This document shows, in pieces, positions 7,885 through 26,775 of a stretch of DNA of 47,892 nucleotides. How positions within the stretch are numbered: position 1 is the stretch's first letter; each line of letters opens with the position of its first letter. The DNA is from Saprospiraceae bacterium (GTDB lineage: Bacteria > Bacteroidota > Bacteroidia > Chitinophagales > Saprospiraceae). The stretch lies in assembly GCA_020436785.1 (NCBI GenBank), contig JAGQXC010000322.1:1-47892 (forward strand), read 5' to 3'. Under the pieces are notes generated by a model. It was not told the DNA's origin and did no database searches. It worked only from the letters and a program-made list of their open reading frames with translations. The position numbers and the translations under genes are program-made.

Positions 7885-7902
7885 AACTAAACCATTGAGA
7901 AA

Positions 7903-10024: not shown

Positions 10025-10044
10025 CTGTATTTTTTTTGAGGGGT

Positions 10045-10554: not shown

Positions 10555-12775
10555 CCTTTGAATTATTTGCTTTCATCCATTCCTTAATTTGATCCCTGAT
10601 CGGAAGCCTCCGGATGCGCAATCCTATGGCGGCAAAAACAGCATTGCAAAGGGCAGGAGCCACCGGAGGATAGGGCGGTTCACCCATGCCCGAAGGCGGA
10701 AAATCGTTCGATGCGATGTGTACTTCAATCTGCTGCGGACTTTCCTTCATTCTCAACACCGGATAGGTATCAAAATTGGATTGGATGGTCCGGCCTGCTT
10801 CGATCGTAATTTCCTGATGAAGTGTTGCACTGAGTCCGTCCAGAATAGCCCCTTCGGTTTGAGCGATGATTCCAGGTTCATACAATGGCTGGCCGCAATC
10901 GATGGCACTGACAAAGCGGTGAATAACCAGCTCTCCTTGCGCGGTGATTGAGATGTCGGCCACATGCGCTACATAGGTGCCAAAGGTGAAATATCCGGCA
11001 ATACCCAACGCTCTGCCTTTCGGCTGTACGCTGCCCCAACCGGCTTTATCTGCCGCAAGCTGAAGGACTTTTTTCATTCGACCTGTATGAATGAAAGTCT
11101 TTTCACCATCCTCTTCTTCAAATAAAAATGGACGGTCATCTCCCAACAGACTAATCCGGAAAGCCAGGGGGTCTTTCTGCTGCGCGTGGGCCAATTCATC
11201 CATAAAACTTTCGACGGGAAAAGCCAAGGCATTGTTGCCTGGCGCCCGCAATAAGGAGCGGTTAATGTTTGAACTAGCCAATAAATATTCCTGACGGAAA
11301 TTTGGTATCAGATGGTTGGGAAAATTTCCCGGAAAGAACTCCGAGCGATGCGGGGGAGTATTGCGAAAAGCATGCCTGGACGTCCCCGACTGGCGGTGCA
11401 GCCAACTGGTAAGTTTACCCTTTTCATTCCAACTTGCCATTAGTTTGTGGTAGCTAAATGGACGGTAAGCATCGTAGAGGAGGTCATCCTCCCGTGACCA
11501 GAAATACTGCACCGGTTTTTTGATCGCCTTGGCTATTTTAGCCGCTTCAATGATGTAATCGGGACCAAGCCGACGACCGAATCCGCCTCCAATTCGTGTC
11601 ACATGCATTTGGATCTTCTCAGACGGCATTTCAAAAAATCGTGATAAAAATTGGAGATCGGCATAGGGAGATTGAGACGTCGTCCATAGCTCGCAGGAAT
11701 CTTCTTTCAGGTCAATGGTTAGATTAACCGGTTCCATCGGAATATGTGCAATAAACGGTACGTGATAAACGGCCTCCAATAGCCGGTTACCACTTCCGGC
11801 AAATTCCCTGAAGACATTCCCTTCATGGATCACTTCGGTACCGTCATCCTGCTCCAACAATGCTTTGCAGTGTTCGTGCAATTGCTCGGTAGATTCGCTG
11901 TTGTTGCCCCCCGTATCCCACACCGGCTTCAACACTTTCCTCGCAGAAAACACCGACCAGGAGGATGTTCCGACGATGGCTACCCCTTCGCGGCACAACG
12001 GATGGGAGGGATCTCCAAAACCTTCCACTTTAAACACCTCCTGAATACCGGGTACCTGTAAGGCCTCCCGGGCATCGAAGGATATTACCCGTCCACCATA
12101 GGTCGGGCACTTGACCATGGAGGCAAACAGCATGCCCGGAATTCGCACATCCAATCCGAAGAGGGATTGACCGGTAACCAGTTGATTGATGTCCGGATTG
12201 ATCACTTTATTAACCGGAATGAGTTTATTTTTCTTTGCATTCAAGGTCACGGAGGCAGGAGGATTCAACTGCGCCGCCACTTCTACCAGGTCGCCGAATG
12301 CCAATTGATGGCCATTAACCCTATTAAATACGTGTCCTTCCCGGGTATAACACTGGCTGGCCGGCAAGTCCCACCTCAGGGCGGCAGCTTCAATCAACAG
12401 GTGTCTGGCAGTAGCGCCTGCCCGTTGTAAAGGCTCCCAATACAATTTGACACTATTGCTGCCGGCCGCCCGCTGGTTATATCCCCCATATTCTTCGCCG
12501 GCATCCGCCTGAATGACGACGACATCCTCCCAGGAAGCGCCTAGTTCTTGCGCAACCAGCCAGGGAAGAGCGGTTTTCACACCTTGTCCGATTTCCGGAA
12601 CCGGATTGGCGATCGTTACCTTACCCAGGGTGTCTATTTGAACGTACGCATTCAATGAATGAGGAACTCCCTGGGTAGGAGTCACGACGGTCTGGTCCCT
12701 GCAGCCAAAAGTGAATCCCACCAGCATTCCGGTCGTACCTGCGATGCCTTTTTGGATAAAGGTTCTTCTTTTCAT
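10541..12775 (-). CDS. Molybdopterin-binding oxidoreductase large subunit (IorB-like)
   Basis: A 744-aa protein of the xanthine dehydrogenase/aldehyde oxidase family, isoquinoline 1-oxidoreductase beta-subunit type. A twin-arginine motif (RRTFIQKG) starts the signal and is followed by a possible lipobox Cys (FTFGC), suggesting folded export by Tat. The order of domains is typical: N-terminal part with PEIGQGVKTALPWLVAQEL and GGYNQRAAGSNSV, the aldehyde-oxidase hammerhead (about 210-290), GGGFGRRLGPDYI for cofactor contact, and a C-terminal SAIDCGQPLYEPGIIAQTEGA and GMGEPPYPPVAPAL with the active-site Glu. The usual small 2Fe-2S subunit (IorA) is not next to it. The substrate is unknown, probably an N-heterocycle or aldehyde. 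Confidence 0.88.
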   Translation of the reverse strand: MKRRTFIQKGIAGTTGMLVGFTFGCRDQTVVTPTQGVPHSLNAYVQIDTLGKVTIANPVPEIGQGVKTALPWLVAQELGASWEDVVVIQADAGEEYGGYNQRAAGSNSVKLYWEPLQRAGATARHLLIEAAALRWDLPASQCYTREGHVFNRVNGHQLAFGDLVEVAAQLNPPASVTLNAKKNKLIPVNKVINPDINQLVTGQSLFGLDVRIPGMLFASMVKCPTYGGRVISFDAREALQVPGIQEVFKVEGFGDPSHPLCREGVAIVGTSSWSVFSARKVLKPVWDTGGNNSESTEQLHEHCKALLEQDDGTEVIHEGNVFREFAGSGNRLLEAVYHVPFIAHIPMEPVNLTIDLKEDSCELWTTSQSPYADLQFLSRFFEMPSEKIQMHVTRIGGGFGRRLGPDYIIEAAKIAKAIKKPVQYFWSREDDLLYDAYRPFSYHKLMASWNEKGKLTSWLHRQSGTSRHAFRNTPPHRSEFFPGNFPNHLIPNFRQEYLLASSNINRSLLRAPGNNALAFPVESFMDELAHAQQKDPLAFRISLLGDDRPFLFEEEDGEKTFIHTGRMKKVLQLAADKAGWGSVQPKGRALGIAGYFTFGTYVAHVADISITAQGELVIHRFVSAIDCGQPLYEPGIIAQTEGAILDGLSATLHQEITIEAGRTIQSNFDTYPVLRMKESPQQIEVHIASNDFPPSGMGEPPYPPVAPALCNAVFAAIGLRIRRLPIRDQIKEWMKANNSKDGDS

Positions 12776-12842
12776 TATGTAGTATACCTGGACAATGCAC
12801 CGGTGATTTATTCCGGCAGCCTTTTCATTTAATTAGCATAAT

Positions 12843-12864
12843 TATAATTGATATATCAATTATA
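12843..12864. promoter_or_regulatory. 22-bp perfect palindrome between divergent genes (operator candidate)
   Basis: A perfect 22-bp inverted repeat with the core TTGATATATCAA, flanked by more A/T. It lies between the molybdopterin gene (minus, starting 12775) and the Bcr/CflA gene (plus, starting 13003). Its symmetry and size suit a dimeric repressor such as a MarR- or TetR-type protein, although no such gene is adjacent. Confidence 0.5.
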
Positions 12865-12977
12865 TGGTTCTTTTCTGGTCCTGTTAACGATTAAATAACA
12901 AATCACCTGGTTCATGATGCGGGGATCGCCCAATGCGTCAGGCTGTTATTTGTAACCTCGAAGTGCCGTCTGCAACT

Positions 12978-12985
12978 TACCTTTG
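12978..12985 (+). promoter_or_regulatory. -7 promoter box (TACCTTTG) before the Bcr/CflA gene
   Basis: Matches TAnnTTTG, 17 nt before the ATG at 13003. A TTTG at 12949-12952 is 25 nt upstream, longer than the usual spacing of about 19-21. Confidence 0.4.
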
Positions 12986-13002
12986 CAGTTTTTATACAGG
13001 CT

Positions 13003-14253
13003 ATGAACGGAACAACCAACACCAAACGCTTTTACCTGATCCTCATACTGGGATTGCTCACTGCGATTGGGCCGTTTTCCATTGATATGTACCTGCCCTC
13101 CTTTCCGGACATCGCCCGCAGCCTGAACACCTCCATCGCCCATGTGATGTTATCCCTGTCGAGCTTCTTCATTGGGATATCGGTGGGACAACTGATCTAT
13201 GGACCGCTGCTGGAGCGGTTTGGAAGAAAAAGGCCGTTGTATGCCGGCCTGGTGATTTACCTCATCGCTTCGGTCGGCTGTGCCCTGGCCGGATCGGTGG
13301 ATCAGCTCATTGTCATGCGATTATTGCAGGCATTGGGTGGTTGTGTCGGGATGGTCGCTTCCCGGGCCATGGTCAGGGACTTGTTTGCGGTGGAAGAAAA
13401 TGCCAGGATATTTTCCAGTTTGATGCTGGTGATTGCCGTTTCCCCCATCATTGCCCCGACGCTTGGCGGATACATCACGGCGGCCTGGGGCTGGCGGTGG
13501 GTCTTTGGCGGACTCATCGTCATTAACCTGATCATCCTTACCGCCGTTCATTTTATGCTGCCGGAAAGTAAAGGCCCTAATCCAAATTATTCCTTGCGTG
13601 CCGGAGCCATCCTGCGCAATTTTGCCGAGATTTTCCGCCACTCCCAATTCCTGACTTATGCCTTCACCGGGGCCATTGCGGCTGCCGGACTCTATGCCTA
13701 CATCAGCGGATCACCGAATGTATTCATGGAGATCTTTGGAGTCAATGAAAAGCAATACGGCTGGATCTTCGCAACCATCGCCGTGGGCATCATCAGTGCC
13801 AGCCAATTCAACAACCTTGCATTACGTTCCTTTACCAGTGAGCAGATTTTGAAAGTGACGCTTCCTTTGCAGGGTCTGATCGGTCTGACGCTGGCCATCC
13901 TGGCCGCCTTGGGATTAAACGGATTATTTCTCACCATCGCTTTGATCTTCTTATTTCTGGCTTGCCAGGGATTTATTTTCCCCAACGCATCCGCATTGTC
14001 CATGGCTCCTTTCGGTCACAGTGCCGGCAGTGCGTCTGCCTTAATGGGGGCCATCCAGATGTTTATTGGTGCCAGCGCCTCTGCTTTGGTCAGTGTATTG
14101 CATTTTCAGTCCTCCTTGCCCATGACGGGTGTCATGGCCCTGTGCGCCATCACCGCTTTCACGGTCTTCTCATTTGGCAACCGCAAGATCCTGAGGAAAG
14201 CCAGCCGGACGACCATCGAAGAAGAAGATGTGGAGATGATCAGCACGTTGTAG
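13003..14253 (+). CDS. Bcr/CflA family MFS drug efflux transporter
   Basis: A 416-aa proton-driven multidrug exporter of the 12-helix DHA1 group. GPFSIDMYLPSFPDIA near the N-terminus is the Bcr/CflA hallmark, GPLLERFGRKRPL is MFS motif A in the helix 2-3 loop, and APTLGGYITAAWGWRWVF is motif C with its following WRW. Length is normal for the family. Family members include the Bcr and CflA exporters; the substrate here is unknown. The 3' end from about 14050 is special: it recurs at 19.68 and 21.08 kb (see repeat entries), so this is the only complete copy of a triplicated segment. Divergent from the molybdopterin operon across a palindrome. Confidence 0.92.
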   Translation: MNGTTNTKRFYLILILGLLTAIGPFSIDMYLPSFPDIARSLNTSIAHVMLSLSSFFIGISVGQLIYGPLLERFGRKRPLYAGLVIYLIASVGCALAGSVDQLIVMRLLQALGGCVGMVASRAMVRDLFAVEENARIFSSLMLVIAVSPIIAPTLGGYITAAWGWRWVFGGLIVINLIILTAVHFMLPESKGPNPNYSLRAGAILRNFAEIFRHSQFLTYAFTGAIAAAGLYAYISGSPNVFMEIFGVNEKQYGWIFATIAVGIISASQFNNLALRSFTSEQILKVTLPLQGLIGLTLAILAALGLNGLFLTIALIFLFLACQGFIFPNASALSMAPFGHSAGSASALMGAIQMFIGASASALVSVLHFQSSLPMTGVMALCAITAFTVFSFGNRKILRKASRTTIEEEDVEMISTL

Positions 14254-14330
14254 CCTTCCGCCTTTACCCGATCACTTGTAAAAATATGGTGAAGTTTAAC
14301 GTTCCAGATTTTGGAATGAACTCCATGGAA
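14050..14330 (+). repeat. Copy A of the triplicated Bcr/CflA 3' end
   Basis: The last 68 codons of the intact transporter gene plus 77 nt after its stop. The coding part matches copy C (21075-21275) without gaps at about nine of ten positions; the part from about 14129 on matches copy B (19677-19886), including the noncoding tail to CTCCATGGAA. AT-rich DNA with two TATATACTT repeats (14338-14346, 14359-14367) starts right after it. Confidence 0.9.
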
Positions 14331-14485
14331 TAGATTATATATACTTTATTATAATTTGTATATACTTGTATTTCTGATTTTTAAACGCGCGTCACACGGA
14401 TAAAAATTACAATCATGTGCGTTAAATCAGTTTCCAAAACAAATAAAAGCAGTTAGTGGCAAATCGTAGGGCGCAACACTCCCTA

Positions 14486-16441
14486 TTATTTTACCCGCAC
14501 CAATTCAACTTCGTCAAATGGGTGATAAATGAGTGGAGAATATTCAATCCGAACATCACTTTTATCCAGACCAAAGTAGTTTTCGTCTTTTAAACTGATC
14601 TTTTTCAACAAGAAATAGGAATTCAGGAGGAGTCCTTCGTGCAATGTAAATTCATTTTCAACCGAAAGAAATTTCTCAATGACAACAAATTTAAAATCCG
14701 GCTCTTGATTGTATCGGGAAGAACCGTCAGGTCGCACATGCAAATTAAGTTCCTTATTTGAAACAAGATCTTGGACTATCTTTTTGAAATATAGTTCAGC
14801 TTTTGGTTGAATGCGAAATCCAACATTAATGTTTACTTTTATTATGGTATCATCCACCAATTCTGAAACATCATACGAAAGTGTATATGGTTCATCTGTC
14901 CGATTCAAATGAACAAACCAGTATACATCCGCACGCTTGGGACTCCTGGCCAAAATTGATTTAATGATTTTACCTTCTACCTGATCCCTTTTATCAGCTT
15001 TTGTGAGGTATATTAAATGGGTGGCATATTTCGGAATTTTCTCATCCACGCTAAGCTCCTGAATAGTGCTCACATAGTCGCCGAGATCAATAAATTGGGT
15101 AAATCTGTTTCTTATCTTCCGTCCGTAAAATACGGAATACATCACGAAAATAAATCCCAGTGCAATGAGTATTGTAATGTATCCTCCATCGCCGAATTTG
15201 TTTACATTGGAGAGAAAAAAAGTGGTTTCAACAATGGCAAATATCAAAACCAAAACATATACCGTTAATTTGTTCCACTGCAAGTTAAATCGCAGATAAA
15301 AGGACAACAAATAAGTTGTCACCAGCATGGTAATGGTGATGGCCAATCCGTATGCCGCTTCCATCTTCGATGAATCATCGAAATGCAGTACCATAAATAT
15401 GCACCCTGCCCATAATAAAATATTGATGCTCGGAATGTAGATCTGGCCTTTGATTTCTGAAGGTTGGCGCACAGACACCCGGGGCCAAAAGTTTAGGCTC
15501 ATTGCTTCGCTTATCAGGGTATAACTACCGCTAATCATTGCTTGTGAGGCAATGATCGTTGCAACCGTGGCAATGATAATTCCAACGATTAAAAACCACC
15601 CGGGCATGATCTCATAAAATGGATTACGTCCATTGAGTGTTGCATTTTCACCCAATTTCATGATCCACGCTGCTTGCCCCATATAATTAAGCAGCAACGC
15701 CGTCTTTACCCCCACCCAGGTGATGCGAATGTTTTTTATGCCGCAGTGTCCCAGATCCGCATACAATGCTTCGGCGCCGGTGGTGGCCAGAAACACTCCC
15801 CCCAAGAGTACAAATCCGTCAGGATAATTCGTTAAAAAATGGAAGGCATACGCGGGATTCAGCGCTTCAAGAATCTGTGGATGCTCTAAAATCTGTACAA
15901 TTCCCAGGATAGATAACATCGTAAACCAGACCAACATAGCCGGTCCGAATGTACTACCTACCTTATTTGTTCCAAACCTCTGGAAGAAAAACAGTGCTGA
16001 TAGAATGGCAATTACAATCGGAATGGTAGGAAGGTTTTCAAGACCATGCAAATTTGTGATTCCCTCTACCGCCGAAGATACTGAAATTGGCGGGGTAATC
16101 ATCCCATCGGCAAGCATGGTAGCAGCTCCGATCATCGTAGGCAAGACCAGGTATTTACCGTGTCGCTTGACCAAGGCGTACAAGGAAAAAATACCGCCCT
16201 CTCCATTATTATCCGCTCTTAAAGTAAGGACAATATATTTGAGGGTCGTCAAGAAAGTAATCGTCCAAAAAACGCAAGAGATCCCACCATAAATCAAGCC
16301 TTCAGTAACAGGCCTTTCTCCGACGATCGCTTTCAATACATACAAGGGGCTGGTCCCAATATCCCCATAAATGATCCCCAGAGCTACCAACAGGGTTCCA
16401 ACCGTAACTTTGTTACTTATTCCATTGTTCGTTTCTACCAA
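14486..16441 (-). CDS. kup: KUP/HAK/KT family potassium transporter
   Basis: A 651-aa potassium uptake protein. The family signature LGIIYGDIGTSPLYVLKAI lies in the first helix, NNGEGGIFSLYALVKR follows helix 2, and GAATMLADGMITPPISV is the conserved helix 3 segment; about 12 helices fill residues 1-435 and the rest is a cytosolic C-terminal domain. Length is close to the family norm of about 620-680. The start is TTG 16441: no in-frame ATG precedes the conserved start. A helical ORF lies 72 nt upstream on the same strand and may be co-transcribed. The whole gene is visibly AT-richer than the flanking transporter gene, fitting acquisition with the neighbouring two-component genes. Confidence 0.93.
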   Translation of the reverse strand: MVETNNGISNKVTVGTLLVALGIIYGDIGTSPLYVLKAIVGERPVTEGLIYGGISCVFWTITFLTTLKYIVLTLRADNNGEGGIFSLYALVKRHGKYLVLPTMIGAATMLADGMITPPISVSSAVEGITNLHGLENLPTIPIVIAILSALFFFQRFGTNKVGSTFGPAMLVWFTMLSILGIVQILEHPQILEALNPAYAFHFLTNYPDGFVLLGGVFLATTGAEALYADLGHCGIKNIRITWVGVKTALLLNYMGQAAWIMKLGENATLNGRNPFYEIMPGWFLIVGIIIATVATIIASQAMISGSYTLISEAMSLNFWPRVSVRQPSEIKGQIYIPSINILLWAGCIFMVLHFDDSSKMEAAYGLAITITMLVTTYLLSFYLRFNLQWNKLTVYVLVLIFAIVETTFFLSNVNKFGDGGYITILIALGFIFVMYSVFYGRKIRNRFTQFIDLGDYVSTIQELSVDEKIPKYATHLIYLTKADKRDQVEGKIIKSILARSPKRADVYWFVHLNRTDEPYTLSYDVSELVDDTIIKVNINVGFRIQPKAELYFKKIVQDLVSNKELNLHVRPDGSSRYNQEPDFKFVVIEKFLSVENEFTLHEGLLLNSYFLLKKISLKDENYFGLDKSDVRIEYSPLIYHPFDEVELVRVK

Positions 16442-16513
16442 AATAATTTTCCTTGAGGTGCGATATAAAATACGGCTTGACCATGCAGATTGACAAACCT
16501 GATTTCAATTCGT

Positions 16514-16858
16514 CTAATTGATGATTTGCCTTTTTAATTCCATCAAATGGTCCCGAAGATTTTGCAGGATTGAAATTAATTTATCCTTGTTCTCAAAGGG
16601 TAGAATGATATGTGAATAGACGTTTAAAGCATATTCAACGCTTTTAATATAGGATTCAATTCCGTTACACATCTCCACAACGTTGTCTGATCCCATAAAC
16701 CACTCCAGGCCCTTTTCTATTCCATCATTGCAATGAAACAGATTTTTGGCACTATCTGATCCTCCCTGATCAAATAACCGAGTAAACCCAACGGTGTCAA
16801 AGCAAATTTCAACAATGGTATCCGAAAATTGCTTTGTATATTCAAATCCATCCACCAA
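16514..16858 (-). CDS. Hypothetical helical protein upstream of kup
   Basis: A 114-aa protein I do not recognise. It is predicted mainly alpha-helical with no signal peptide or membrane helix; three Cys are scattered (EICFD, NLFHCND, EMCNG). An in-frame stop lies just upstream of the start, so TTG 16858 or GTG 16855 is the start. It is followed by kup after 72 nt on the same strand, so it may be the first gene of a kup transcript. Coding is plausible from length and amino-acid make-up, but there is no family support. Confidence 0.5.
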   Translation of the reverse strand: MVDGFEYTKQFSDTIVEICFDTVGFTRLFDQGGSDSAKNLFHCNDGIEKGLEWFMGSDNVVEMCNGIESYIKSVEYALNVYSHIILPFENKDKLISILQNLRDHLMELKRQIIN

Positions 16859-17096
16859 TCCAAAGTCTTAAGTCACCTACCTAATGATACCAATGAATCT
16901 GTCGAATCATTTCGCGTTGCAAACTTATAATGCAGAAAATAATTAAGTCATTAAGATTTATGACTGAGATATAAATATTGCATAAAGAAATGTTTTAACC
17001 GCAAATGGCAAATGGTGATAGAAACTTCACATCCCGACCGGCCAAGTCTTTGGAAAACGATTGTCCAACTGAGACTGGCCCTACTTAACACCTGGT

Positions 17097-17109
17097 GTTG
17101 ACCTTACAA
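17097..17109. promoter_or_regulatory. 13-nt palindrome AACACCTGGTGTT
   Basis: Perfect 6-bp arms around one central T, in the gap between the divergent kup and kinase transcripts. It could be half of a regulator site, but a palindrome this short may be chance. Confidence 0.25.
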
Positions 17110-17234
17110 CAACAAGCCTTGCTTACCCAGGTATCATTATCGTCTGGAAGGAACGATTATGCCCCGACTTTTGGCATTTAATATGACATTCTTCCGCCAC
17201 ACACCCGTAAAGGAGTAACTGGTTCAAAATAGAA

Positions 17235-17339
17235 TCACTTATCCCCCAAGACATCTTGAACCGACAAAACCAATAAAAAAACAATCAGGGCAATCAATAA
17301 TGCAATCCCGAAGGTTTGCATCCCATGTGCAGAATTCAT
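17235..17339 (-). CDS. 34-aa one-helix membrane microprotein candidate
   Basis: A minus-strand frame of 34 codons with an ATG start. It encodes a short polar head (MNSAHGMQ), one strongly hydrophobic helix (about residues 9-26, IALLIALIVFLLVL) and a charged tail (DVLGDK). This is the architecture of regulatory or stabilising one-helix subunits such as KdpF, but there is no sequence match that I can claim. It lies upstream of the helical ORF and kup, on their strand, inside the potassium block. Composition makes coding plausible; expression is unproven. Confidence 0.35.
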   Translation of the reverse strand: MNSAHGMQTFGIALLIALIVFLLVLSVQDVLGDK

Positions 17340-17708
17340 TTTGTATGCATTCTTCAATACAAAACAATACAAAAGCCCATAAATGCAGGCTAAAACCTCC
17401 TTGTTTGAAGTAAAATTAGTATGAAGATCAATGGTTGCAATGTCATTAACTGTCGCCTCCCCACATCAACCATTATCAGGAGTTGCATGTAACCGTAGTG
17501 GTTTAACATTGGTTTCAAATCTCGAAGATTGGGAACGAATCCATGAAAGAATTAACGAGGACAGTTCAGATGGTATATTAAGGGATTGACAAAAAATCAC
17601 TTTCACACCAAACGATTGCTTGACCAGCAGGGCGCACATATTTTTGGATACTCCTTTTCCTTCTTTATACCTTCTTTATGTCAGTATAACTAACTTTATC
17701 CCTAAAAA

Positions 17709-18797
17709 TTGAATTTCCCTAAAACAAGGAATTTCAGCAAAGCGAACCAATACTTCATCAGCACTCTGCTTATTGGAGTGACGGCGGTGATATGTTTTTT
17801 TCTGGTCGGTTTTATTGGTTACCGAACCGTTTCACTCATCCTATTACTTTCCGTTTCATTCAATGCGATTTTATTTGATCTGCTTCCGGTAATGCTTTCG
17901 GCGCTCTTGAGTGCCCTCATTTTAAACTTTTTCTTTATCCCGCCCATACTTACCTTCTATATCGGAACGCCAGAGGATGGGCTGACCTTCCTGTTGTATT
18001 TTGTCATTGCATTAATAAATGGTGCGTTCACGTATAAGATTAAGGAATTCGAACGCAAAACTAGGGATGAGGAAGAAAAAGCGAATGCCATTCGCCTGTA
18101 TACCACCTTACTCAATTCGCTTTCACACGAATTGAGAACTCCAATAGCAACCATTATTGGTGCGATTGATACCATCAAGGACCACAATTCACGTCTCACG
18201 GAAAGTAACAAGATCGAATTGTATTCCGAGATTGAAGTAGCCAGCTTAAGGCTGAACCGGCAAGTGGAAAATTTACTCAATATGAGCAGATTGGAAGCTG
18301 GATTCATTCAACCACAAAAAGATTGGTGTGATATCAACGAACTAATATCTTCCGTCATTTCAACTGAAAACATCGCTGCAAACCCTCATCCAATTGAATT
18401 CACTCCTGATGAATCACTGCCCTATTTCAAACTTGACGGCGGATTGCTCGAACAAATCCTCAGTAATCTCATCCATAATGCATTGCAACATACACCGGAA
18501 AAAACGAAAATAATTATAGAAGCAACAAGTTCGAATACCCATTGTATTATTGGTATTTCAGACAATGGAAACGGATTTCCACCTGACGAAATTGGCCTTG
18601 TCTTTAACAAATTTTACCGATTAAAAAATACGTCTGGAGGAGGTACGGGATTAGGGCTCTCATTGGTCAGAGGTTTCGCTGAAGTAATGGGGGGCGAAGT
18701 TAATCTGAACAACCAACAGGGAGGGGGAGCAAAATTCACCTTAAAGATTCCGTGTGAACAATCCCATAATGAAAGCCATAACATGGACGAAGTATGA
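17709..18797 (+). CDS. KdpD-like sensor histidine kinase lacking the KdpD/Usp sensor
   Basis: A 362-aa sensor kinase. Residues about 17-110 form the four-helix DUF4118 membrane domain found in KdpD. A short linker leads to the HisKA domain (NSLSHELRTPIATI, phospho-acceptor His about 140) and a HATPase_c domain with the N box (NLIHNALQHTP), G1 (DNGNGFP), F box and G2 (GGGTGLGLSLVRG). Full KdpD is about 900 aa and begins with KdpD-sensor and UspA-like domains; these are absent. The start is TTG 17709; no ATG precedes the first helix. Its stop overlaps the regulator's start (ATGA), so the two are translated together. Probably senses membrane or potassium state, by analogy only. Confidence 0.9.
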   Translation: MNFPKTRNFSKANQYFISTLLIGVTAVICFFLVGFIGYRTVSLILLLSVSFNAILFDLLPVMLSALLSALILNFFFIPPILTFYIGTPEDGLTFLLYFVIALINGAFTYKIKEFERKTRDEEEKANAIRLYTTLLNSLSHELRTPIATIIGAIDTIKDHNSRLTESNKIELYSEIEVASLRLNRQVENLLNMSRLEAGFIQPQKDWCDINELISSVISTENIAANPHPIEFTPDESLPYFKLDGGLLEQILSNLIHNALQHTPEKTKIIIEATSSNTHCIIGISDNGNGFPPDEIGLVFNKFYRLKNTSGGGTGLGLSLVRGFAEVMGGEVNLNNQQGGGAKFTLKIPCEQSHNESHNMDEV

Positions 18798-19465
18798 ACA
18801 AAGCAGAAATACTTATCATCGATGATGAGCCTCAGATACGCAAATTGCTGCAAATTATTCTGGAGAGCAACGAGTACAAAGTAAGTCAGGCAAGCACCGG
18901 TAAGGAAGGAATGATCATGGCAGCCATGCATCCTCCGGATTTGATTTTACTGGATATTGGCTTACCGGATTGCAACGGGCATGAGATTCTGGCAGAACTT
19001 AGGGAATGGTACAATAAACCGATTATTATTCTTTCGGTGCGTGATAATGAATTCGACATCGTTTCGGCATTGGATCATGGTGCGACAGATTACCTGACAA
19101 AACCATTTCGAACCGGTGAATTACTGGCAAGAATCCGGTCATCATTCCGAAGGAGTCAAAATGTTGACAACAATACAACCATTACTTCCGGGGAGATTGA
19201 AATTGACCTGATCGCCCGGCTTGTTAAAAGAAAAGGTGAAATCCTTAAGCTCACCTCCACGGAATACAACTTGTTGGCCTTATTTGCAAAAAATGAAGGG
19301 AAGGTTCTGACTCACAAATACATCCTCAGGGAAATATGGGGCATTGGAAATCAAACGGAGACTCTTCGCGTTTTTGTAGGTACTTTACGCAAAAAGATTG
19401 AGGAAAATCCCAGTAATCCTCGACACATCTTAACTGAAATTGGAGTGGGTTATCGGTTCCAATAA
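18794..19465 (+). CDS. KdpE-like OmpR/PhoB family response regulator
   Basis: A 223-aa response regulator. The receiver domain has the acidic pair IIDDEP, the phospho-acceptor Asp54 in LILLDIGLPD and the Lys in YLTKPF. The C-terminal winged helix reads LTSTEYNLLALFAKNEGKVLTHKYIL and ends VGYRF, as in KdpE and other OmpR-type regulators. It overlaps the kinase gene by 4 nt (ATGA). No kdpFABC genes follow; the linked potassium gene is kup, divergent and about 1.3 kb away, which is the likeliest target by position. Regulatory target is inference. Confidence 0.92.
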   Translation: MNKAEILIIDDEPQIRKLLQIILESNEYKVSQASTGKEGMIMAAMHPPDLILLDIGLPDCNGHEILAELREWYNKPIIILSVRDNEFDIVSALDHGATDYLTKPFRTGELLARIRSSFRRSQNVDNNTTITSGEIEIDLIARLVKRKGEILKLTSTEYNLLALFAKNEGKVLTHKYILREIWGIGNQTETLRVFVGTLRKKIEENPSNPRHILTEIGVGYRFQ

Positions 19466-19539
19466 ACAATTAACAAAGTGCTTATGCTTGCAATGATTAT
19501 TTTATACTCTATTTATTAAGAATGGATTTTCTTCGATAA

Positions 19540-19659
19540 ATGGTTATATTATTTCTATTTAAGGAGCTATTTCTACTCGCTGGAGTGGTAATAATTCTCC
19601 TCTTCATCGGTTGGATGTACTACATTTCCTATTGTGAAATATTTAAACACCGGCGATGA
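19540..19659 (+). CDS. 39-aa one-helix membrane microprotein candidate
   Basis: A 39-codon frame with ATG, starting directly after a TAA. It encodes one hydrophobic helix (about residues 10-25, FLLAGVVIILLFIGW) flanked by a short head with one Lys-Glu pair and a Tyr-rich, basic tail (YYISYCEIFKHRR), a layout that fits a single-pass protein with a positive cytosolic end. It lies 74 nt after the response regulator on the same strand and ends 17 nt before repeat copy B. No family match claimed. Confidence 0.35.
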   Translation: MVILFLFKELFLLAGVVIILLFIGWMYYISYCEIFKHRR

Positions 19660-19676
19660 TTACCGGATCCTAAATC

Positions 19677-19886
19677 CCATGAAACGTGTAATGGCCTTGG
19701 GTGCCATCACCACTTTCACCGTATTCTCAGTTGGTAACCGCAAGATCCTGAGGAAAGCCAGCCGGACGACCATCGAAGAAGAAGATGTGGAGATGATCAG
19801 CACCTTGTAGCCTTCCGCCATCGACAGATCCCTGTAAAAAAATGGTGAAGTTTAACGTTTCAGTTTTTGGAATGCACTCCATGGAA
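19677..19886 (+). repeat. Copy B of the triplicated Bcr/CflA 3' end
   Basis: Corresponds to about 14129-14330 of copy A, from CCCATGA to CTCCATGGAA, including the noncoding tail beyond the stop. A block of nearly 70 nt around the codons for NRKILRKASRTTIEEED is identical to copy A; the edges have diverged and small length changes occur only in the noncoding tail. Confidence 0.9.
19679..19810 (+). pseudogene. Fragment of Bcr/CflA transporter (last 43 codons)
   Basis: The fragment keeps an open frame from an ATG to the same TAG as the intact gene and encodes the last transmembrane helix in part and the full charged tail (ending EEEDVEMISTL). Everything upstream of the last helix is missing, so it cannot transport. 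Substitutions relative to the intact gene cluster at its 5' end. It is best read as a remnant, although a 43-aa peptide could in principle be made. Confidence 0.75.
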
Positions 19887-19988
19887 CTCAAGCTTTACTG
19901 TTTGGCAGGAACTACAATGAAGTTACTTTTAGAAAGCAAAGAGTATTTTGGCTTTCTATTACAATTATCCCAAATCTTTTTCTAATGA

Positions 19989-20579
19989 TTATCGTCTTTC
20001 CCAAAATTTCAAAAAGCCTCCTTCTGCATCAAGTACCAATTTATATGATTTTGGAACTTCCTTCAAAAAACCGTAGTAGGTAACCAGTCTTGTCCCTGAA
20101 GGCATCGTATCCAATTCATTTCTCACATACCCGACATAACAATTGTACAATTGGCGACTCCGCAGTGTAGTTTGGTCAATAGGATCTTCCCTACAAATAT
20201 TTTCGTGAAATGAATTAAAAAAGTAAAATGATTTAAATTCTGAAAATTGTACGTTTACTATATTTTCGTTTATCATACTCACACGATCAAGGTCATATCT
20301 CTCAATCACGTGATTGGCTATATCACATAGAATGGTTCTTTGCTCCACTCCAACATATTGTGCGCTTGTCCACGCAGAGCCAATCATGCAAAATTTTCCG
20401 GGTCCGGCCCCAATGTCGAGAACAGCATTGCTTTTTTCACCAAGGTAATCAGAAGCCAATTTTGCGACTTTTACAGAGGTGAAGTGCATATCGGATAAAA
20501 GCCTGATATTGGAAGGGAAAACTTTATCAAACTCACGATCAGAAATGTCCTTATTCGCTTTGATGTGTCTGAATAACAT
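19989..20579 (-). CDS. Class I SAM-dependent methyltransferase
   Basis: A 196-aa protein with a Rossmann-type methyltransferase core. Motif I is AVLDIGAGPGKFCMIG (about residues 53-68), followed by YVGVEQR (motif II acidic/Glu equivalent) and an aromatic segment FKSFYFFNSFHEN in the position of motif IV. The layout resembles small DOT1-like or generic Methyltransf families; the acceptor (protein, nucleic acid or small molecule) cannot be told. It is the only minus-strand gene in the accessory block between copies B and C, and is AT-rich like its neighbours. No operon partner. Confidence 0.8.
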   Translation of the reverse strand: MLFRHIKANKDISDREFDKVFPSNIRLLSDMHFTSVKVAKLASDYLGEKSNAVLDIGAGPGKFCMIGSAWTSAQYVGVEQRTILCDIANHVIERYDLDRVSMINENIVNVQFSEFKSFYFFNSFHENICREDPIDQTTLRSRQLYNCYVGYVRNELDTMPSGTRLVTYYGFLKEVPKSYKLVLDAEGGFLKFWERR

Positions 20580-20771
20580 TAAACTAAATTAACCAGTTTA
20601 CAAATTATTGAAGATCAAAATTACTCCAAACGATTCAAATGGTCACTATCATGTAAAGGTTGACTCCCACTGGTTAATCATCCCGATTTTGCGAGTCAAG
20701 TGATCGCTTTAATGACTTCTGCATTGAACAGGTAGCGTATTTATTTGTACCATGCTTAGGAATATTTTTCA

Positions 20772-21251
20772 ATGAATCACTCTCAACACACCGGCCATTC
20801 TACTTCAAACCATTCCCACCACGATCACCACCGCATGATGATCAGGGATTTCAGACGTCGATTTTGGATTTCGCTTGCGCTAACGCTGCCTGTCCTGGCG
20901 CTCTCTCCCTTAATCAAAAAAGGACTTGGCCTGGAATTCAGCATACCGGGGGACCGCTATATTTTGTTTGGCCTCTCGAGCATTCTATTTTTTTACGGAG
21001 GGTTCCCCTTCCTCAAAGGGCTGGTTGACGAAATCCATAAAAATTCAGCGGGTATGATGACCCTGATCGCAGTGGCCATACAGATGTTTATTGGTGCCGG
21101 CGCCTCTGTCCTGGTCAGCGTATTGCACTTTCAATCATCCTTGCCTATGACGGGTGTAATGGCACTGTGCACCATCACCGCTTTCACAGACTTCTCATTT
21201 GGCAACCGCAAGATCCTGAGGAAAGTCAGCCTGGCGACCATCGAAGTATAA
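20772..21251 (+). pseudogene. Chimera: copper P-type ATPase N-terminus fused to Bcr/CflA C-terminus
   Basis: A 159-aa open frame. Residues 1 to about 102 match the start of the CopB-type ATPase at 24679 (His-rich head, MMIRDFRRRFW, FFYGGFPFLKGL, GMMTLIAVA) at clearly less than full identity. From IQMFIGAGASVLVSV on, the protein is the C-terminal 57 residues of the Bcr/CflA transporter. The join falls at GCCAT, shared by both parents at that point. All ATPase catalytic parts (TGES, CPH, DKTGT) are missing, so it cannot pump copper. It may be a relic, or a His-rich membrane protein with a new role. The frame ends early at TAA relative to the transporter because of two substitutions. Confidence 0.85.
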
Positions 21252-21275
21252 GATGTGGAGAGGATCAGCACGCTG
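21075..21275 (+). repeat. Copy C of the triplicated Bcr/CflA 3' end
   Basis: Matches 14050-14250 of copy A without gaps, with about 22 differences in 201 nt by eye. Homology ends near the former stop codon, earlier than in copy B. Its left edge is the fusion point inside the chimeric ATPase frame. Confidence 0.88.
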
Positions 21276-21313
21276 AGAGTGTCCTGGTTATCCACCCCTT
21301 TGTTTTTTGTTTC

Positions 21314-21345
21314 ATTGACATTTAATAGCAATTGGCTTAACTTTG
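21314..21345 (+). promoter_or_regulatory. Bacteroidota-type promoter of the copper block
   Basis: ATTG, 20 nt, then TAACTTTG. The -7 box fits TAnnTTTG fully and ends 19 nt before the ATG at 21365, so it probably drives the HYC_CC_PP gene and perhaps the genes after it. Confidence 0.55.
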
Positions 21346-21364
21346 TCAAAATCAGTTCAATCTG

Positions 21365-21826
21365 ATGAAGATAAGTCTCCCATATCGATTGATCGCATTG
21401 ACTCTGGCACTGTTGACCGCTGTATCATCAGTTGGAGTTGCTGCCAACCTACATTATTGCCAGGGTCATCTTTATTCATTTGCTCTCTGGGGTAAGGCCG
21501 CCGTTTGCAATGATTTGCATGGTGAAATGCAAATGCATAACTGTGATCATGATCAACAGGTTTGCAATTACAATGACAATCCTCAGTTCAGCAAATCAAA
21601 TTGCTGCCAGAATCGGCTTTCTTATGCCCATTCCGATCAAGATCTGGAAATTACTCACTGCACATTGAATTGGCTCAATGCATCGCCAATCTTCTTTAAT
21701 CCGGATCATTTTACAAGTCTTCATCTCTTGAATAATCAAGAATTGGAGCCCATTTTCAAGACAAATAATCACGCGCCACCTCTTCCAAAGGACATACCGA
21801 TCCTTTTCCAATCTTTCTTGTTATAG
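21365..21826 (+). CDS. HYC_CC_PP family protein (copper-linked)
   Basis: A 153-aa predicted exported protein. After a signal peptide (about 1-27) come the three hallmarks of the HYC_CC_PP family in order: HYC at residues 30-32, a CC pair (NCCQN) near residue 80, and a PP pair (APPLPKD) near the C-terminus. In between, further Cys and His (NCDHDQQVC, THC) could bind metal. Proteins of this family occur in Bacteroidota next to metal-export genes; the molecular role is not established. Here it opens a copper block, directly before a multicopper oxidase, and has its own promoter. Length is usual for the family. Confidence 0.8.
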   Translation: MKISLPYRLIALTLALLTAVSSVGVAANLHYCQGHLYSFALWGKAAVCNDLHGEMQMHNCDHDQQVCNYNDNPQFSKSNCCQNRLSYAHSDQDLEITHCTLNWLNASPIFFNPDHFTSLHLLNNQELEPIFKTNNHAPPLPKDIPILFQSFLL

Positions 21827-22044
21827 CTCACCTTTATCCCTCTCAGGCAACCATTGCCTTTCGATTAGTTCGTTTTGGTGTGAACACATCAAGTGGTTCG
21901 GTCAAATGCAAAGTGTTGTTTCTGAAAATTTCATTTTGAAGGCCATATGGTTACTTAATAGAATTTTCAGAATCCTTTATGAGACGAGCTATTAATGGTG
22001 TTCAAAACCAGGACAGGTCATCTTCGCCATTAAAATTCTATAAC

Positions 22045-23745
22045 ATGAAAAAAGCAGTACAATTCCTAATATGGGTTCTTCCAATAGGAATCATAGCTCA
22101 AAATGCCCTTTTTATCCCTGATACTTTAAGCGGCAATTCCATTGAACTCCGGCTTCAATCAGGCCAGGTTGAATTTTACCCCGAATACCTCACAAAAACC
22201 ATGGGGTACAACCAGGATTATCTGGGACCAACTTTGATGCTGAACAAAGGTCAATCTGTAAACATGCATGTAATTAATGATCTCAGTACATCTACCACCC
22301 TGCATTGGCATGGCATGCATGTATCGGCCAAAAATGATGGAGGACCACACACGGTCATACCTGCCGGTAACACCTGGAGTCCCTCCTTTACCGTAATGGA
22401 TCAGGCTGCCACTTATTGGTACCATCCTCATTTACACCAACATACGGAAGAACAAGTCACCCTGGGCGCGGCCGGTGTAATCATCGTCCGGGATCCGGAA
22501 GAACGCAAATTAATCCTACCCCGGACCTACGGCAAAGATGACTTTCCCATTGTCATCCAATCGCGTGCGTTCTCTGCAGATAAACAAATGATGATCCAAA
22601 CAGCGGGTGATGATGTTATCCTTTGTAACGGAACCCGTGATGCGTATTTGCAGGTTCCAGCCCAGGTTGTCCGTTTGCGTCTGCTCAACGGTTCTACTGA
22701 ACGCGTCTACAATCTTGGTTTTTCAGATGATATGCCCTTCTATCAAATAGCGACCGACGGAGGTCTCTTGAATGCTCCGGTTTCTTTAAACCGACTGATA
22801 CTTGCTCCGGGAGAACGAGCTGAAATACTTTTTGACCTGCATAATGTTGAAGGAAAGACCATCCAAATGACAAGCTATTCTTCTGAATTATCCTGGGGTA
22901 TGTATGGCTCTTCACATCCCAGTATGATGCCCATGGGATCAATACCTGGATATGGCCAGAATGGTTTGAATGACAGAGACTTTAAAGTCATGCAATTGAC
23001 GGTTGTGGCTCCAACCGAAAATCCAATTTTAGCGGTACCGGAATCGTTGATCACAAATAAACCATATCCCATTTCCGAGACCTCTGCTTACCGGAATCTG
23101 ATATTTACTCCGGAGCATGACGAAATGGGACCAGGTGCTATGACCAATGGACCGTTTGAGATTAATGATGCGGAATTTGATCCAAATATCATCAATTTCC
23201 GCATTCCCTTGAACAATACCGAAGTGTGGGAATTAACCAATAGGACGGCCATTGCTCATCCTTTCCAAATACATGATGTACAATTCTACATTCTGGATAT
23301 CAATGGAAATCCGCCACCTCCCAATGAGCAAGGAAGAAAGGATGTCGTTCTGGTGCCTCCCATGTCTGGAACCGTCCGTTTCATCACCAGGTTTGCGGAT
23401 TTTGCTAACCAGGAAACGCCATTCATGTACCATTGTCATATGCTCACGCACGAAGACGCAGGTATGATGGGACAGTTTATCGTGGAAGGACAAACCTCTG
23501 GGATTGCCACCACGACTAAACCTGAAATAACCTTATATCCTAATCCGGCTTACGACCAGATTACGGTATCCGGACTCACTCCTGGAATTATTTCAGTCTA
23601 CAATGCCAACGGTCAGCTACTGGAAACACGCAAATCGGAAAAATATTTTGAAAAATTCCAATTATCCGGGTTACCCGCCGGGATGTATTTTTTCAAAATT
23701 CAGGAAAAAGATGATATCCAATTACTTAAAGTGATAAAAAATTAA
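22045..23745 (+). CDS. Multicopper oxidase with T9SS sorting domain
   Basis: A 566-aa secreted multicopper oxidase. All four copper motifs are present: HWHGMH (His87, 89), WYHPHLH (His127, 129, 131), HPFQIH (His405, 410) and HCHMLTHEDAGMM (His463 to 469, type 1 and trinuclear ligands). Three cupredoxin domains fill residues about 25-490. The last 75 or so residues are a type A T9SS sorting domain (LYPNPAYDQITVSGL, then GMYFFKI), so it is exported across the outer membrane. The ATG at 22045 gives a clean signal peptide ending IIAQ; the frame is open further upstream. Likely oxidises Cu(I) or phenolics; copper detoxification is inferred from neighbours. Confidence 0.92.
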   Translation: MKKAVQFLIWVLPIGIIAQNALFIPDTLSGNSIELRLQSGQVEFYPEYLTKTMGYNQDYLGPTLMLNKGQSVNMHVINDLSTSTTLHWHGMHVSAKNDGGPHTVIPAGNTWSPSFTVMDQAATYWYHPHLHQHTEEQVTLGAAGVIIVRDPEERKLILPRTYGKDDFPIVIQSRAFSADKQMMIQTAGDDVILCNGTRDAYLQVPAQVVRLRLLNGSTERVYNLGFSDDMPFYQIATDGGLLNAPVSLNRLILAPGERAEILFDLHNVEGKTIQMTSYSSELSWGMYGSSHPSMMPMGSIPGYGQNGLNDRDFKVMQLTVVAPTENPILAVPESLITNKPYPISETSAYRNLIFTPEHDEMGPGAMTNGPFEINDAEFDPNIINFRIPLNNTEVWELTNRTAIAHPFQIHDVQFYILDINGNPPPPNEQGRKDVVLVPPMSGTVRFITRFADFANQETPFMYHCHMLTHEDAGMMGQFIVEGQTSGIATTTKPEITLYPNPAYDQITVSGLTPGIISVYNANGQLLETRKSEKYFEKFQLSGLPAGMYFFKIQEKDDIQLLKVIKN

Positions 23746-23806
23746 GTGTATTGAAATTAAATACCTCCCGCATTTTCCTATTAACTAATCAAAAAAATTT
23801 CAAATC

Positions 23807-24250
23807 ATGAAAAAACTGATTTTATTTCTGACAATAGCCGGTAGTTCATGGCTACTGTCCAGTTGCAATTCTACTGCCCCCAACACCGATCAAATTTTGC
23901 AAAACGAAGCTTCGCGAAAGCAACTATTTGAGCAAATTGCATCCAATCATGAGATGATGATGGCTTTTATGCCGGTCATGATGGGTAATGAGCATGCCAA
24001 AATGATGCTGCAAGGGAATAAGGATTTGCAGGGGATGATGATGTCCGCCGACAATATGATGCAGATGATGAAAGACAATCCCAGCACCATGCACAATATG
24101 ATGAGTGCCATGATGAAAGATGGCCCCATGATGGCCCACATGATGCAAATGATGAGTCAGGGTGGTATGATGAGTGAAGATTGCATGCACTCGAGCATGA
24201 TGATGATGCAGGGCAAAGGCATGAATATGGGTGAAATGATGAATCATTAA
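23807..24250 (+). CDS. Met-rich lipoprotein, probable copper binder
   Basis: A 147-aa lipoprotein (lipobox LLSSC, Cys20). Residues 48 to the end are packed with methionines, usually in pairs to quadruples (MMMAFMPVMM, MMQMM, SSMMMM), with several His next to them; 38 of 147 residues are Met. Met clusters bind Cu(I), as in CopC-, CusF- or PcoE-like proteins and methionine-rich loops of copper oxidases. The motif pattern is not one I can name as a family. It lies 61 nt after the multicopper oxidase and so may be its copper store or partner at the membrane. The repeated ATG codons also make the reverse strand look His-rich; that is an artefact. Confidence 0.8.
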   Translation: MKKLILFLTIAGSSWLLSSCNSTAPNTDQILQNEASRKQLFEQIASNHEMMMAFMPVMMGNEHAKMMLQGNKDLQGMMMSADNMMQMMKDNPSTMHNMMSAMMKDGPMMAHMMQMMSQGGMMSEDCMHSSMMMMQGKGMNMGEMMNH

Positions 24251-24331
24251 TCAGCAACTCCCGGAAAGACCTGGAAATGCGCTGAATAGGATGATTTTTT
24301 GAAATAGCCTATTGTTTTAACGCAAGGTGAT

Positions 24332-24346
24332 CCTGAAACTTTCAGG
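24332..24346. promoter_or_regulatory. Inverted repeat CCTGAAAcTTTCAGG
   Basis: Two perfect 7-nt arms around one base, in the 290-nt gap between the Met-rich lipoprotein and the 43-aa microprotein. It could be an operator for the copper genes or a small hairpin. No T-tract follows. The remainder of the gap shows nothing I can support. Confidence 0.3.
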
Positions 24347-24540
24347 GAACTTCTTATTCAGCAGCATTTCCATGCGGGACTCCCGTATATAATTTGAAGC
24401 ACCCCTCTTGACGGGTTTATTGTGGAGTCTCTAAATTAATTTCTGTTTCATGTTAAGACGAGTTTCAGTTCTTGTACTTTAAAAATGGGGTAAATGCTGA
24501 TATAGATAATTTCTGAAATTAAAGTCCCAAAATTGCCCTG

Positions 24541-24672
24541 ATGAAAAATTGTTGCCAAACAGATGAAACGCTGCAACCTCCAAAATTTCTGTCCTGGTTA
24601 AAAAGGCTGCTATGGTTTATCATTATCGTCCTTTTTACATTCATCCTTATTGATCAACTAATTAACCGATAA
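24541..24672 (+). CDS. 43-aa membrane microprotein with Cys-Cys head
   Basis: A 43-codon ATG frame ending 6 nt before the CopB ATPase start. It encodes a short head with a Cys-Cys pair (MKNCCQTDE), a basic linker (FLSWLKRLL) and one hydrophobic helix (about residues 23-38, WFIIIVLFTFILI). The tight spacing to the ATPase, the adjacent cysteines and the single helix suggest a metal-delivery or regulatory subunit of the pump. Similar short CC-plus-helix ORFs are, as far as I recall, seen near metal exporters in this phylum, but I can give no family name. Too short for most gene finders. Confidence 0.6.
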   Translation: MKNCCQTDETLQPPKFLSWLKRLLWFIIIVLFTFILIDQLINR

Positions 24673-24678
24673 CAAAAA

Positions 24679-26775
24679 ATGAACCATCAACATAATGAAC
24701 ATACGGAAATAAAGCCTTCCGGTCAATCCGGCGGAAACGCTCACCTGGACCATAGCAAAATGAATCATGGTGACATGGATCATTCGGGTGCCAATCCCCC
24801 TCACGGTCACATGGGCCATGATCACCACAAGATGATGATTGCCGATTTCAGAAAGCGGTTTTGGGTCTCCGTGATCCTTTCGATACCGGTATTGATTCTG
24901 TCGCCGATGATCCAGGGATTCCTGGGATTTGAACTGGTCTTTGCAGGGAATCTCTATGTTTTGTTTGCCTTGTCTTCCCTGGTATTTTTCTATGGAGGCT
25001 GGCCTTTTCTGAAAGGATTGAAAGAGGAGATGGCGAAAGGTGCTCCGGGCATGATGACCCTGATTGCCGTTGCCATTACTGTAGCTTATGTGTACAGCAG
25101 TGCGGTGGTTTTTGGTCTGCAAGGCAAGATGTTCTTCTGGGAGCTGGTCACGCTGATAGATATCATGCTGATAGGTCACTGGATTGAGATGAAATCCGTT
25201 TTGGGGGCTTCTAAAGCATTGGAATTACTGGTAAGCATGATGCCCTCTGAAGCGCATAAAGTGCACGGAGACCACGTCATGGATGTGAAATTGGAGGACC
25301 TTAACCAAGATGACATTATCCTCATTAAACCCGGAGAAAAAGTTCCTGCAGATGGAATGATCATTGACGGTGAAAGTTACCTCAATGAATCCATGTTAAC
25401 GGGAGAATCCAAACCCGTAAAAAAAGGAACGGATCAGGAAGTCATCGGTGGGTCAATGAATGGCAATGGATCGCTAACAGTTAAGGTTTTACATACTGGC
25501 AAGGATAGTTATCTGAATAAAGTGATCACCCTGGTCCAGGATGCTCAAAAGGCAAAATCCAAAACGCAGCACCTGGCGGACAGGGCGGCCAAATGGTTGA
25601 CATACATTGCACTTGGAGTGGGTTTTGCTACACTGGCCATCTGGCTATTGCTGGGTTTTGAATTTGTTTATGCGTTGGAACGGATGGTCACGGTCATGGT
25701 CATCTCTTGTCCGCATGCACTGGGTTTGGCTATTCCGTTGGTGGTTGCCATATCCACGGCTATTTCTGCTCAAAACGGATTGCTGATCCGCAACCGGACG
25801 GCTTTTGAAAATTCCCGGAAAATATCGACCATTCTGTTTGATAAAACCGGAACTTTGACTAAAGGAGACTTTGGTGTGACGCGGTTTGAAACGGTTTCTG
25901 ATAAATACGATAAAGAAAAAATATTGCGTCTGGCCAGCGCACTGGAACAAAGTTCCGAACATCCTATTGCCGTAGGAATCGTCAATAAATCCAAGGAGCT
26001 GAAAATATCCATACCCAAAGCTGAACATTTCAATGCTATAACAGGCAAGGGGGTCGAGGCAAATGTTGAAGGACTGGATGTAAAAGTAGTTAGCCCGGGA
26101 TACCTGAAAGACAACAACATCACCATTCCTGATCAGGCATATACCAATGACGCCGAAACTGTCGTCTTTGTAATGATCAAAGAAGTGCTGGCAGGCTATA
26201 TTGCCCTGGCCGATGAAATAAGGCCAGAGTCAAAAGAAGCCATCCGAAAATTCAAGGAAAATAACATCAAAGTAATGATGGCAACAGGTGATAATAAAAC
26301 TGTCGCTGAATCCGTGAGCAAAGAACTTGGCCTGGACAATTATTACGCCGAAGTATTACCCCATCAAAAGGTAGAGATTGTCAAAGAATTGCAGGAAAAA
26401 GGAGAATTTGTTGCCATGACCGGGGACGGGGTAAACGATGCACCGGCACTGGCTCAGGCCGATATCGGGATTGCCGTGGGTTCCGGTACTGACGTGGCTG
26501 CGGAAACGGCAGATATTATTTTGGTAAACAGCAATCCCCAGGATATTCTCAACCTGATCTTGTTTGGCAAAGCAACGTATAAGAAGATGATCCAGAACCT
26601 GGTCTGGGCTACCGCATACAATGCCTTTGCGATTCCATTGGCAGCCGGCGTACTGTATTCAGCTGGCTTTGTATTGGGTCCGGCGGTGGGTGCGGTCTTT
26701 ATGAGTTTAAGCACCGTTGTGGTTGCAATTAACGCCCAGTTCCTGAAGAATTCCATGCAAAAGAATGCCGCTTAG
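24679..26775 (+). CDS. copB: CopB-type copper-translocating P-type ATPase
   Basis: A 698-aa P1B-type ATPase that pumps copper out of the cytoplasm. The first 50 residues carry 12 His and no CxxC domain, as in CopB pumps. The ion-site motif is CPH (Cys344-His346), which defines the P1B-3 group (CPC would be CopA). TGES (241-244), the phosphorylated Asp388 in DKTGTLT, the HP dipeptide in SSEHPIA, and TGDGVNDAPAL are all intact. Length is typical. It follows the CC microprotein by 6 nt and is followed 48 nt later by a Crp/Fnr regulator. A diverged partial paralogue of its N-terminus lies at 20772. Confidence 0.94.
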   Translation: MNHQHNEHTEIKPSGQSGGNAHLDHSKMNHGDMDHSGANPPHGHMGHDHHKMMIADFRKRFWVSVILSIPVLILSPMIQGFLGFELVFAGNLYVLFALSSLVFFYGGWPFLKGLKEEMAKGAPGMMTLIAVAITVAYVYSSAVVFGLQGKMFFWELVTLIDIMLIGHWIEMKSVLGASKALELLVSMMPSEAHKVHGDHVMDVKLEDLNQDDIILIKPGEKVPADGMIIDGESYLNESMLTGESKPVKKGTDQEVIGGSMNGNGSLTVKVLHTGKDSYLNKVITLVQDAQKAKSKTQHLADRAAKWLTYIALGVGFATLAIWLLLGFEFVYALERMVTVMVISCPHALGLAIPLVVAISTAISAQNGLLIRNRTAFENSRKISTILFDKTGTLTKGDFGVTRFETVSDKYDKEKILRLASALEQSSEHPIAVGIVNKSKELKISIPKAEHFNAITGKGVEANVEGLDVKVVSPGYLKDNNITIPDQAYTNDAETVVFVMIKEVLAGYIALADEIRPESKEAIRKFKENNIKVMMATGDNKTVAESVSKELGLDNYYAEVLPHQKVEIVKELQEKGEFVAMTGDGVNDAPALAQADIGIAVGSGTDVAAETADIILVNSNPQDILNLILFGKATYKKMIQNLVWATAYNAFAIPLAAGVLYSAGFVLGPAVGAVFMSLSTVVVAINAQFLKNSMQKNAA

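Follow-up and report, generated by a model that had tools for sequence, protein, structure and literature searches.

Three copies of a Bcr/CflA transporter gene end beside potassium- and copper-related genes in a Saprospiraceae bacterium: possible scars of nested insertion by single crossover

Introduction

The locus described here raises the question of how the 3' end of one transporter gene comes to stand three times in succession, each time behind a different left partner and beside genes related to potassium or copper. The window, that is, the whole stretch of DNA analysed, comprises 47,892 nucleotides of a Saprospiraceae bacterium (GenBank assembly GCA_020436785.1, contig JAGQXC010000322.1, positions 1 to 47,892, forward strand); its relevant features are compiled in Table 1. 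The original prediction, made from the letters of the window, was that DNA had been captured repeatedly next to the same gene end, possibly at an integration or recombination hotspot that copies the 3' part of the gene. The two partial copies, termed stubs B and C, have the appearance of scars from old recombination and not that of a novel mobile element. The reading preferred here, to which we assign a probability somewhat below one half (about 0.47), is that they are insertion-duplication scars left by single crossover in two nested events.

Table 1. Features of the window bearing on the copied transporter end
Feature	Coordinates	Strand	Remarks
Bcr/CflA-family MFS efflux gene, intact, likely source of the copied 3' end	13003..14253	+	TIGR00710 efflux_Bcr_CflA
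Copy A, gene 3' end and noncoding tail	14049..14330	+	14049-14250 matches C; 14119-14330 matches B
A-B core	A 14179..14262, B 19736-19819	+	1 difference in 84; 68-nt exact run
Cargo block 1, between A and B	14331..19675	.	AT-rich, GC 0.397
Kup-type potassium transporter	14486..16441	-	PF02705, E 4.2e-154
KdpD-like histidine kinase	17709..18797	+	DUF4118, HisKA, HATPase_c
KdpE-like response regulator	18794..19465	+	regulators next to kup in 24 loci of relatives match at 59-73%
Stub B, last 132 coding bases, stop and tail of Bcr/CflA	19676..19886	+	sharp on both sides
Cargo block 2	19887..20771	.	GC 0.363
Methyltransferase-like gene in block 2	19989-20579	-	weak sub-cutoff methyltransferase matches
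Second copper-ATPase gene, 5' end (~100 codons)	20772..21073	+	diverged from the intact copy at 24679
Stub C, Bcr/CflA 3' end without tail	21074..21275	+	in-frame fusion to copper-ATPase start
Copper gene group	21365..26775	+	
HYC_CC_PP protein	21365-21826	+	
Multicopper oxidase	21979-23745	+	
Met-rich protein	23807-24250	+	
Copper P-type ATPase, intact	24679-26775	+	

The transporter gene and its copied end

The intact gene matches the Bcr/CflA model with 313.6 bits, well above the cut-off of 200.9, and its protein shares 71% of its amino acids with the best named relative. Its distribution is patchy: of 298 genomes from the order, 36 (own genome included) have it at E 1e-110 or better, with identities of at most 58% to other genomes of its own family and up to 71% to another family. 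The resident gene was itself probably acquired.

Comparison of the whole window with itself (blastn) returned the three copies that had been described in the original prediction, all in direct orientation and with coordinates that proved right to within one base; a second repeat finder gave the same three members. A and B match at 88.7% over 212 columns with one gap (14119-14330 against 19676-19886), A and C at 89.4% (14049-14247 against 21074-21272), and B and C at 85.6% over 118 nt, the E values of these self-matches ranging from 6e-29 to 6e-69. The predicted divergence of roughly 5-12% holds for A and B (24 differences in 212 positions) and for A and C (22/202); that between B and C is larger (23/132). 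The repeat measures 211 bp in B and 202 bp in C, and its boundaries differ when given in the coordinates of A, lying on the left at 14119 for B and 14049 for C, and on the right at 14330 and 14250. Beyond the last sense codon, the match of A and B continues for 80 bases, up to 14330 and 19886, respectively, in agreement with the noncoding tail that had been proposed as common to them; C is without this tail, the comparison scoring no better than shuffles. All four stub edges are sharp, in that the adjoining outer sequence does not outscore shuffled sequence under a strict scheme; with looser scoring, the left flank of B went down to p 0.04, which none of the remaining edges did. B keeps the open 43-codon end of the gene, and C carries a premature stop. 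A search for the fragment elsewhere in the genome, which the original prediction had proposed, covered 5.6 Mb in 654 contigs and yielded the three known places and no further copy.

Ancestry of the copies

In a FastTree tree with 46 relatives covering all codons, A, B and C form one clade (local support 0.985) in which A lies nearest the root, with branch lengths of 0.0006 for A, 0.09 for B and 0.136 for C. Over the 132-nt coding overlap there is one private change in A, compared with 11 in B and 11 in C, and one site at which all three differ. Four of the 11 private changes in B, and likewise four in C, are to bases found in at most 3% of 64 relatives. On the other side, the base of the stub is commoner among relatives than that of A at 5 of the 11 private sites in B and at 2 of the 11 in C, and not every private change seems to bear the mark of decay. 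Most simply, B and C are likely to be decayed copies of A itself, in which case their divergence does not imply independent sources. The original prediction had used that divergence as a clue to their nature; the divergence is real, and the tree together with the private changes suggests decay after copying as its simpler cause. Since both stubs carry the same number of private changes, the counts do not give the order of the two events.

Diverged orthologues brought in by the donors of the cargo are unlikely, as A, B and C form one clade with A at its base. A mutagenic retroelement was also considered and set aside, the changes in B and C being without adenine bias (judged by eye, with no statistic). 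In general terms, sequence alone can be enough to identify the source of gene fragments at the edges of an island, and a repeat divergence of 10% may correspond to decay after duplication and not to independent origin.

The core shared by A and B

The differences between A and B are distributed unevenly, with 12 in the 60 columns left of the core, a single one in the 84 columns inside it and 11 in the 68 columns to its right, such that the combined flanks differ at 23 of 128 positions (~18%). A run of at least 68 matches has a P of ~0.001 under random placement of the differences, while the Fisher value of 8e-5 for the core is post hoc, its limits having been chosen after the alignment was seen. 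Across the same stretch, C differs from A at 7 of 72 positions, like the rest of C, and has no identical core. Among relatives this place is not conserved more strongly: the mean frequency of the A base among them is 0.52 in the core and 0.58 in the two preceding parts. From this pattern, A and B probably exchanged sequence at the core, either by crossover or by gene conversion, and a later gene conversion would leave the same contrast as a crossover (1/84 against 23/128). A 22-base piece of the core had no exact match in viral contigs, and inspection of the tail by eye revealed no integron-like or Xer-like site.

The cargo and the fusion at stub C

Domain matches bear out the gene content anticipated for the two sides of the locus, potassium-related between A and B and copper-related after C. 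The A-B block looks foreign in composition. Its first 5 kb have a GC content of 0.401, and none of 36 background 5-kb windows is that low (lowest 0.404, mean 0.479, sd 0.029), the background consisting of these 36 windows only, taken from 20 other contigs and the flanks of the own contig. Tetranucleotide distances of 0.272-0.273 lie above the background maximum of 0.267 (31 windows), the 5-kb windows concerned, from 15001 and 17501, reaching past the end of block 1 or close to it. Comparison of the cargo DNA (14000-27400) with the own genome gave one further match only, of 56 bases; a megablast search of a plasmid collection gave one 71% match only, within the intact copper ATPase, and a search for RNA families in 12700-27600 gave one chance match, far below the gathering score.

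At stub C, the in-frame fusion creates an ORF of 159 residues (20772-21251), in which the His-rich part and the first membrane segments of a copper ATPase are followed by the transporter end; it is probably a relic. The ATPase part matches the intact copy of the window at 55% and genes in 21 other genomes at 56-69% (298 searched, own included), and no other ATPase match to it exists in the own genome. The hexamer GGCCAT at the join occurs in the Bcr gene as well and can be assigned to either side. It is present at the same place in 6 of the 19 related ATPase genes listed, the intact ATPase of the window having only GCCAT.

Search for a recombinase or a hotspot

A Pfam scan of all 46 ORFs in the window that have 90 or more codons names no integrase or transposase, as the original prediction had anticipated, and six-frame translation of 16860-17720 gave no Pfam match. 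In a different family of the order, one that commonly has the gene, 394 genomes were searched with the last 67 residues of the Bcr protein, and 88 of them gave 94 matches. No free stub is among these, although one as short as B, with 43 codons, could escape the threshold; in four the open frame has less than 400 codons, three of these being full-length genes in which the frame is broken and the fourth beginning at a contig end. A second C-terminus was encountered at one of 82 Bcr loci and belongs to a full-length paralogue. For an empty-site comparison, the 59 other genomes are all of other genera, and a DNA match occurs in the own genome only.

Of the two parts of the original prediction, repeated capture at one gene end is partly sustained: the stubs do edge acquired-looking DNA, lie in direct orientation and represent the same gene end, which fits two successive insertions. 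The hotspot, on the other hand, is not supported, in view of the different boundaries of B and C, the failure to find a recombinase, the 94 matches without a free stub and the single locus in 82 with a second C-terminus; at the depth tested (82 loci; 394 genomes), a general hotspot at Bcr/CflA was not seen. A dedicated capture system is unsupported. A literature search found no paper joining Bcr/CflA, a genomic island and an integration site, an absence that does not mean that none has been published.

Origin of the stubs

According to the preferred reading, a circle carrying a piece of the Bcr 3' end would cross once with the chromosome and would thereby insert beside the resident gene, which would stay whole on the left (A), with a redundant 3' stub stranded on the far side of the insert and left to decay. 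The tail, together with the methyltransferase block and the beginning of copB, would have arrived on an earlier insert that stranded C; a later one would have brought the kup/kdp block, stranding B together with the tail. Two nested events would explain every boundary without any deletion, and the nested order of the inserts would account for the tail being shared by A and B and missing from C. As expected of an insertion-duplication, the A-B block is flanked by direct copies of resident sequence, and at the limits of the homology the sequence changes abruptly, to the insert at one end and to other DNA at the opposite end, apart from the one loose value left of B. It is a crossover, rather than a later gene conversion, that we infer as the maker of the core, and we reconstruct the event order and the source of the circles in the same conditional manner. 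The reading has its price, since it takes the extra assumption that a Bcr fragment of the same lineage was already present on the DNA that came in, and the search for a plasmid or vector remnant found none.

A comparable process is documented in E. coli conjugation, where, by the account in PMC3240628, selected small-plasmid insertions produced gene-end duplications of 109-950 bp that the authors ascribe to a single crossover; a PCR product diagnostic of the duplication was obtained from 56 of 60 selected clones, and the size range comes from 14 sequenced ones. In both cases incoming DNA lies between direct repeats of a gene end, and the range quoted spans the 202 and 211 bp found here. The E. 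coli events, however, arose under laboratory selection with a plasmid, whereas those proposed for the present locus are old, nested, decayed and deduced after the fact. Taking the argument further, the Bcr/CflA end might have served as a repeated anchor that captures metal-transport DNA without a recombinase of its own, each stub offering homology for the next capture. We consider this extension improbable; if true, it would represent a simple, integrase-free way to build an island at one spot, with growth by homology alone.

The main rival is a tandem duplication that started inside the Bcr/CflA gene, or an amplification of the entire gene, after which deletions removed all but the 3' stubs, the cargo being pre-existing or later. 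Such an origin is unlikely in our view, yet it has definite merits. When a duplication starts inside the gene, the 3' end is necessarily repeated downstream in direct orientation, joined to a new partner on the left while the right side stays the same, the GGCCAT at the C join makes joining at short homology possible, and close full-length Bcr paralogues occur in L007 and, ~3-4 kb apart, in G530 and G585. Direct copies, new left joins and a possible short shared sequence are likewise features of the tandem duplications and deletions at short homologies treated in PMC3411829 and PMC11111574; what sets the present locus apart from the cases presented there is the foreign-looking block between A and B and the lack of a surviving second copy of a neighbour. 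No trace of the right-hand sequence of A is seen to the right of B or C, such that additional deletions have to be invoked, and more steps are needed than for nested insertions. Furthermore, duplication alone fails to predict that a foreign-looking block begins and ends at the repeat. Short homology also enters the proposal of templated insertions, in which repair synthesis with template switching copied short Bcr pieces into breaks. The short pieces with abrupt ends, the one local source gene and the possible 6-nt shared sequence at the C join agree with it, but both pieces are direct and both contain the gene end, neither the foreign block nor the tail pattern is explained, and the literature on such insertions, by its titles, concerns mostly eukaryotes; we regard this origin as very unlikely.

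Serial islands with a tyrosine recombinase that targeted the Bcr 3' end, their integrases later lost, appear improbable. Elements are known to integrate into protein genes at their 3'-distal part, as did 14 of the 68 thaumarchaeal integrated elements mapped in the account of PMC6563490, and as in such islands the gene remains intact at one end of the insert while the opposite end is marked by a copied gene end; the near-identical A-B core, moreover, resembles an attachment core. Against this stand the lack of any integrase in the ORFs and in the six frames examined, the absence of free stubs among the 94 matches, the divergence of C at the core, which is hence not found at every junction, and copies of ~200 bp that exceed the 29-69 bp quoted for crenarchaeal elements in the same source. 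An assembly artefact, with the contig wrongly joined at the repeats, has a small chance only. With 654 contigs, 17 of 20 sampled ones being shorter than 17 kb, a draft or metagenome assembly is suggested, and the 68-nt exact run of A and B is long enough to mislead a short-word assembler, such that an error is most conceivable at the A-B core. The longest exact run between A and C is 35, making C safer; an assembler is unlikely to create the sequence differences, and a wrong path at the A-B core would only relocate stub and foreign block. Least credible of all is that the stubs are functional, either as silent cassettes for the transporter tail or through a useful fusion protein. The in-frame fusion, the conversion-like core and the intact coding end of B can be cited in favour. 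Nevertheless, the C-terminal tail is conserved among relatives, the last coding bases of B matching 12 Bcr loci at 85-100% over 27-36 nt, and therefore leaves little reason for variation; the rare-base changes in both stubs and the premature stop in C likewise speak against a function.

The potassium genes and related loci

Among the matches listed, the kup gene is closest to that of a genome of another family in the order (75%) and reaches at most 65% with genomes of its own family, 166 of the 298 genomes having a match. Of 29 kup loci from relatives, 24 have kdpD- and kdpE-like genes next to kup and in line with it. A joint transfer of Bcr and kup was considered and dropped for want of evidence, as a Bcr gene was seen near kup, at a distance of ~3 kb, only in L183 among 18 kup/kdp loci. 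Conversely, the 83 Bcr loci gave no match to kup, the kinase, the methyltransferase or the copper oxidase at E 1e-15, and four weak matches (33-36%) to the regulator and the copper ATPase.

The KdpD-like/KdpE-like pair (17709-19465) stands beside Kup apparently without a Kdp pump, as an orphan pair of potassium regulators. It appears pump-less because KdpA had no match in the own genome, in a search that found KdpA in 5 of 14 control genomes; the kinase gave no match to the N-terminal sensor domain of KdpD. Between kup and the kinase, ~850 bases (16860-17706) are without a recognisable gene and possibly contain decayed ones, and the adjoining ORF 16514-16858 on the minus strand (114 residues) has no Pfam, NCBIfam or PHROGs match. 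A scrambled kup/kdp operon, which the order of kup (minus), kdpD (plus) and kdpE (plus) might suggest, was rejected: in another genome, locus L174 (G235) holds two adjacent kup-kdpDE sets at 4210-11918, one of them in the same divergent order as in the window.
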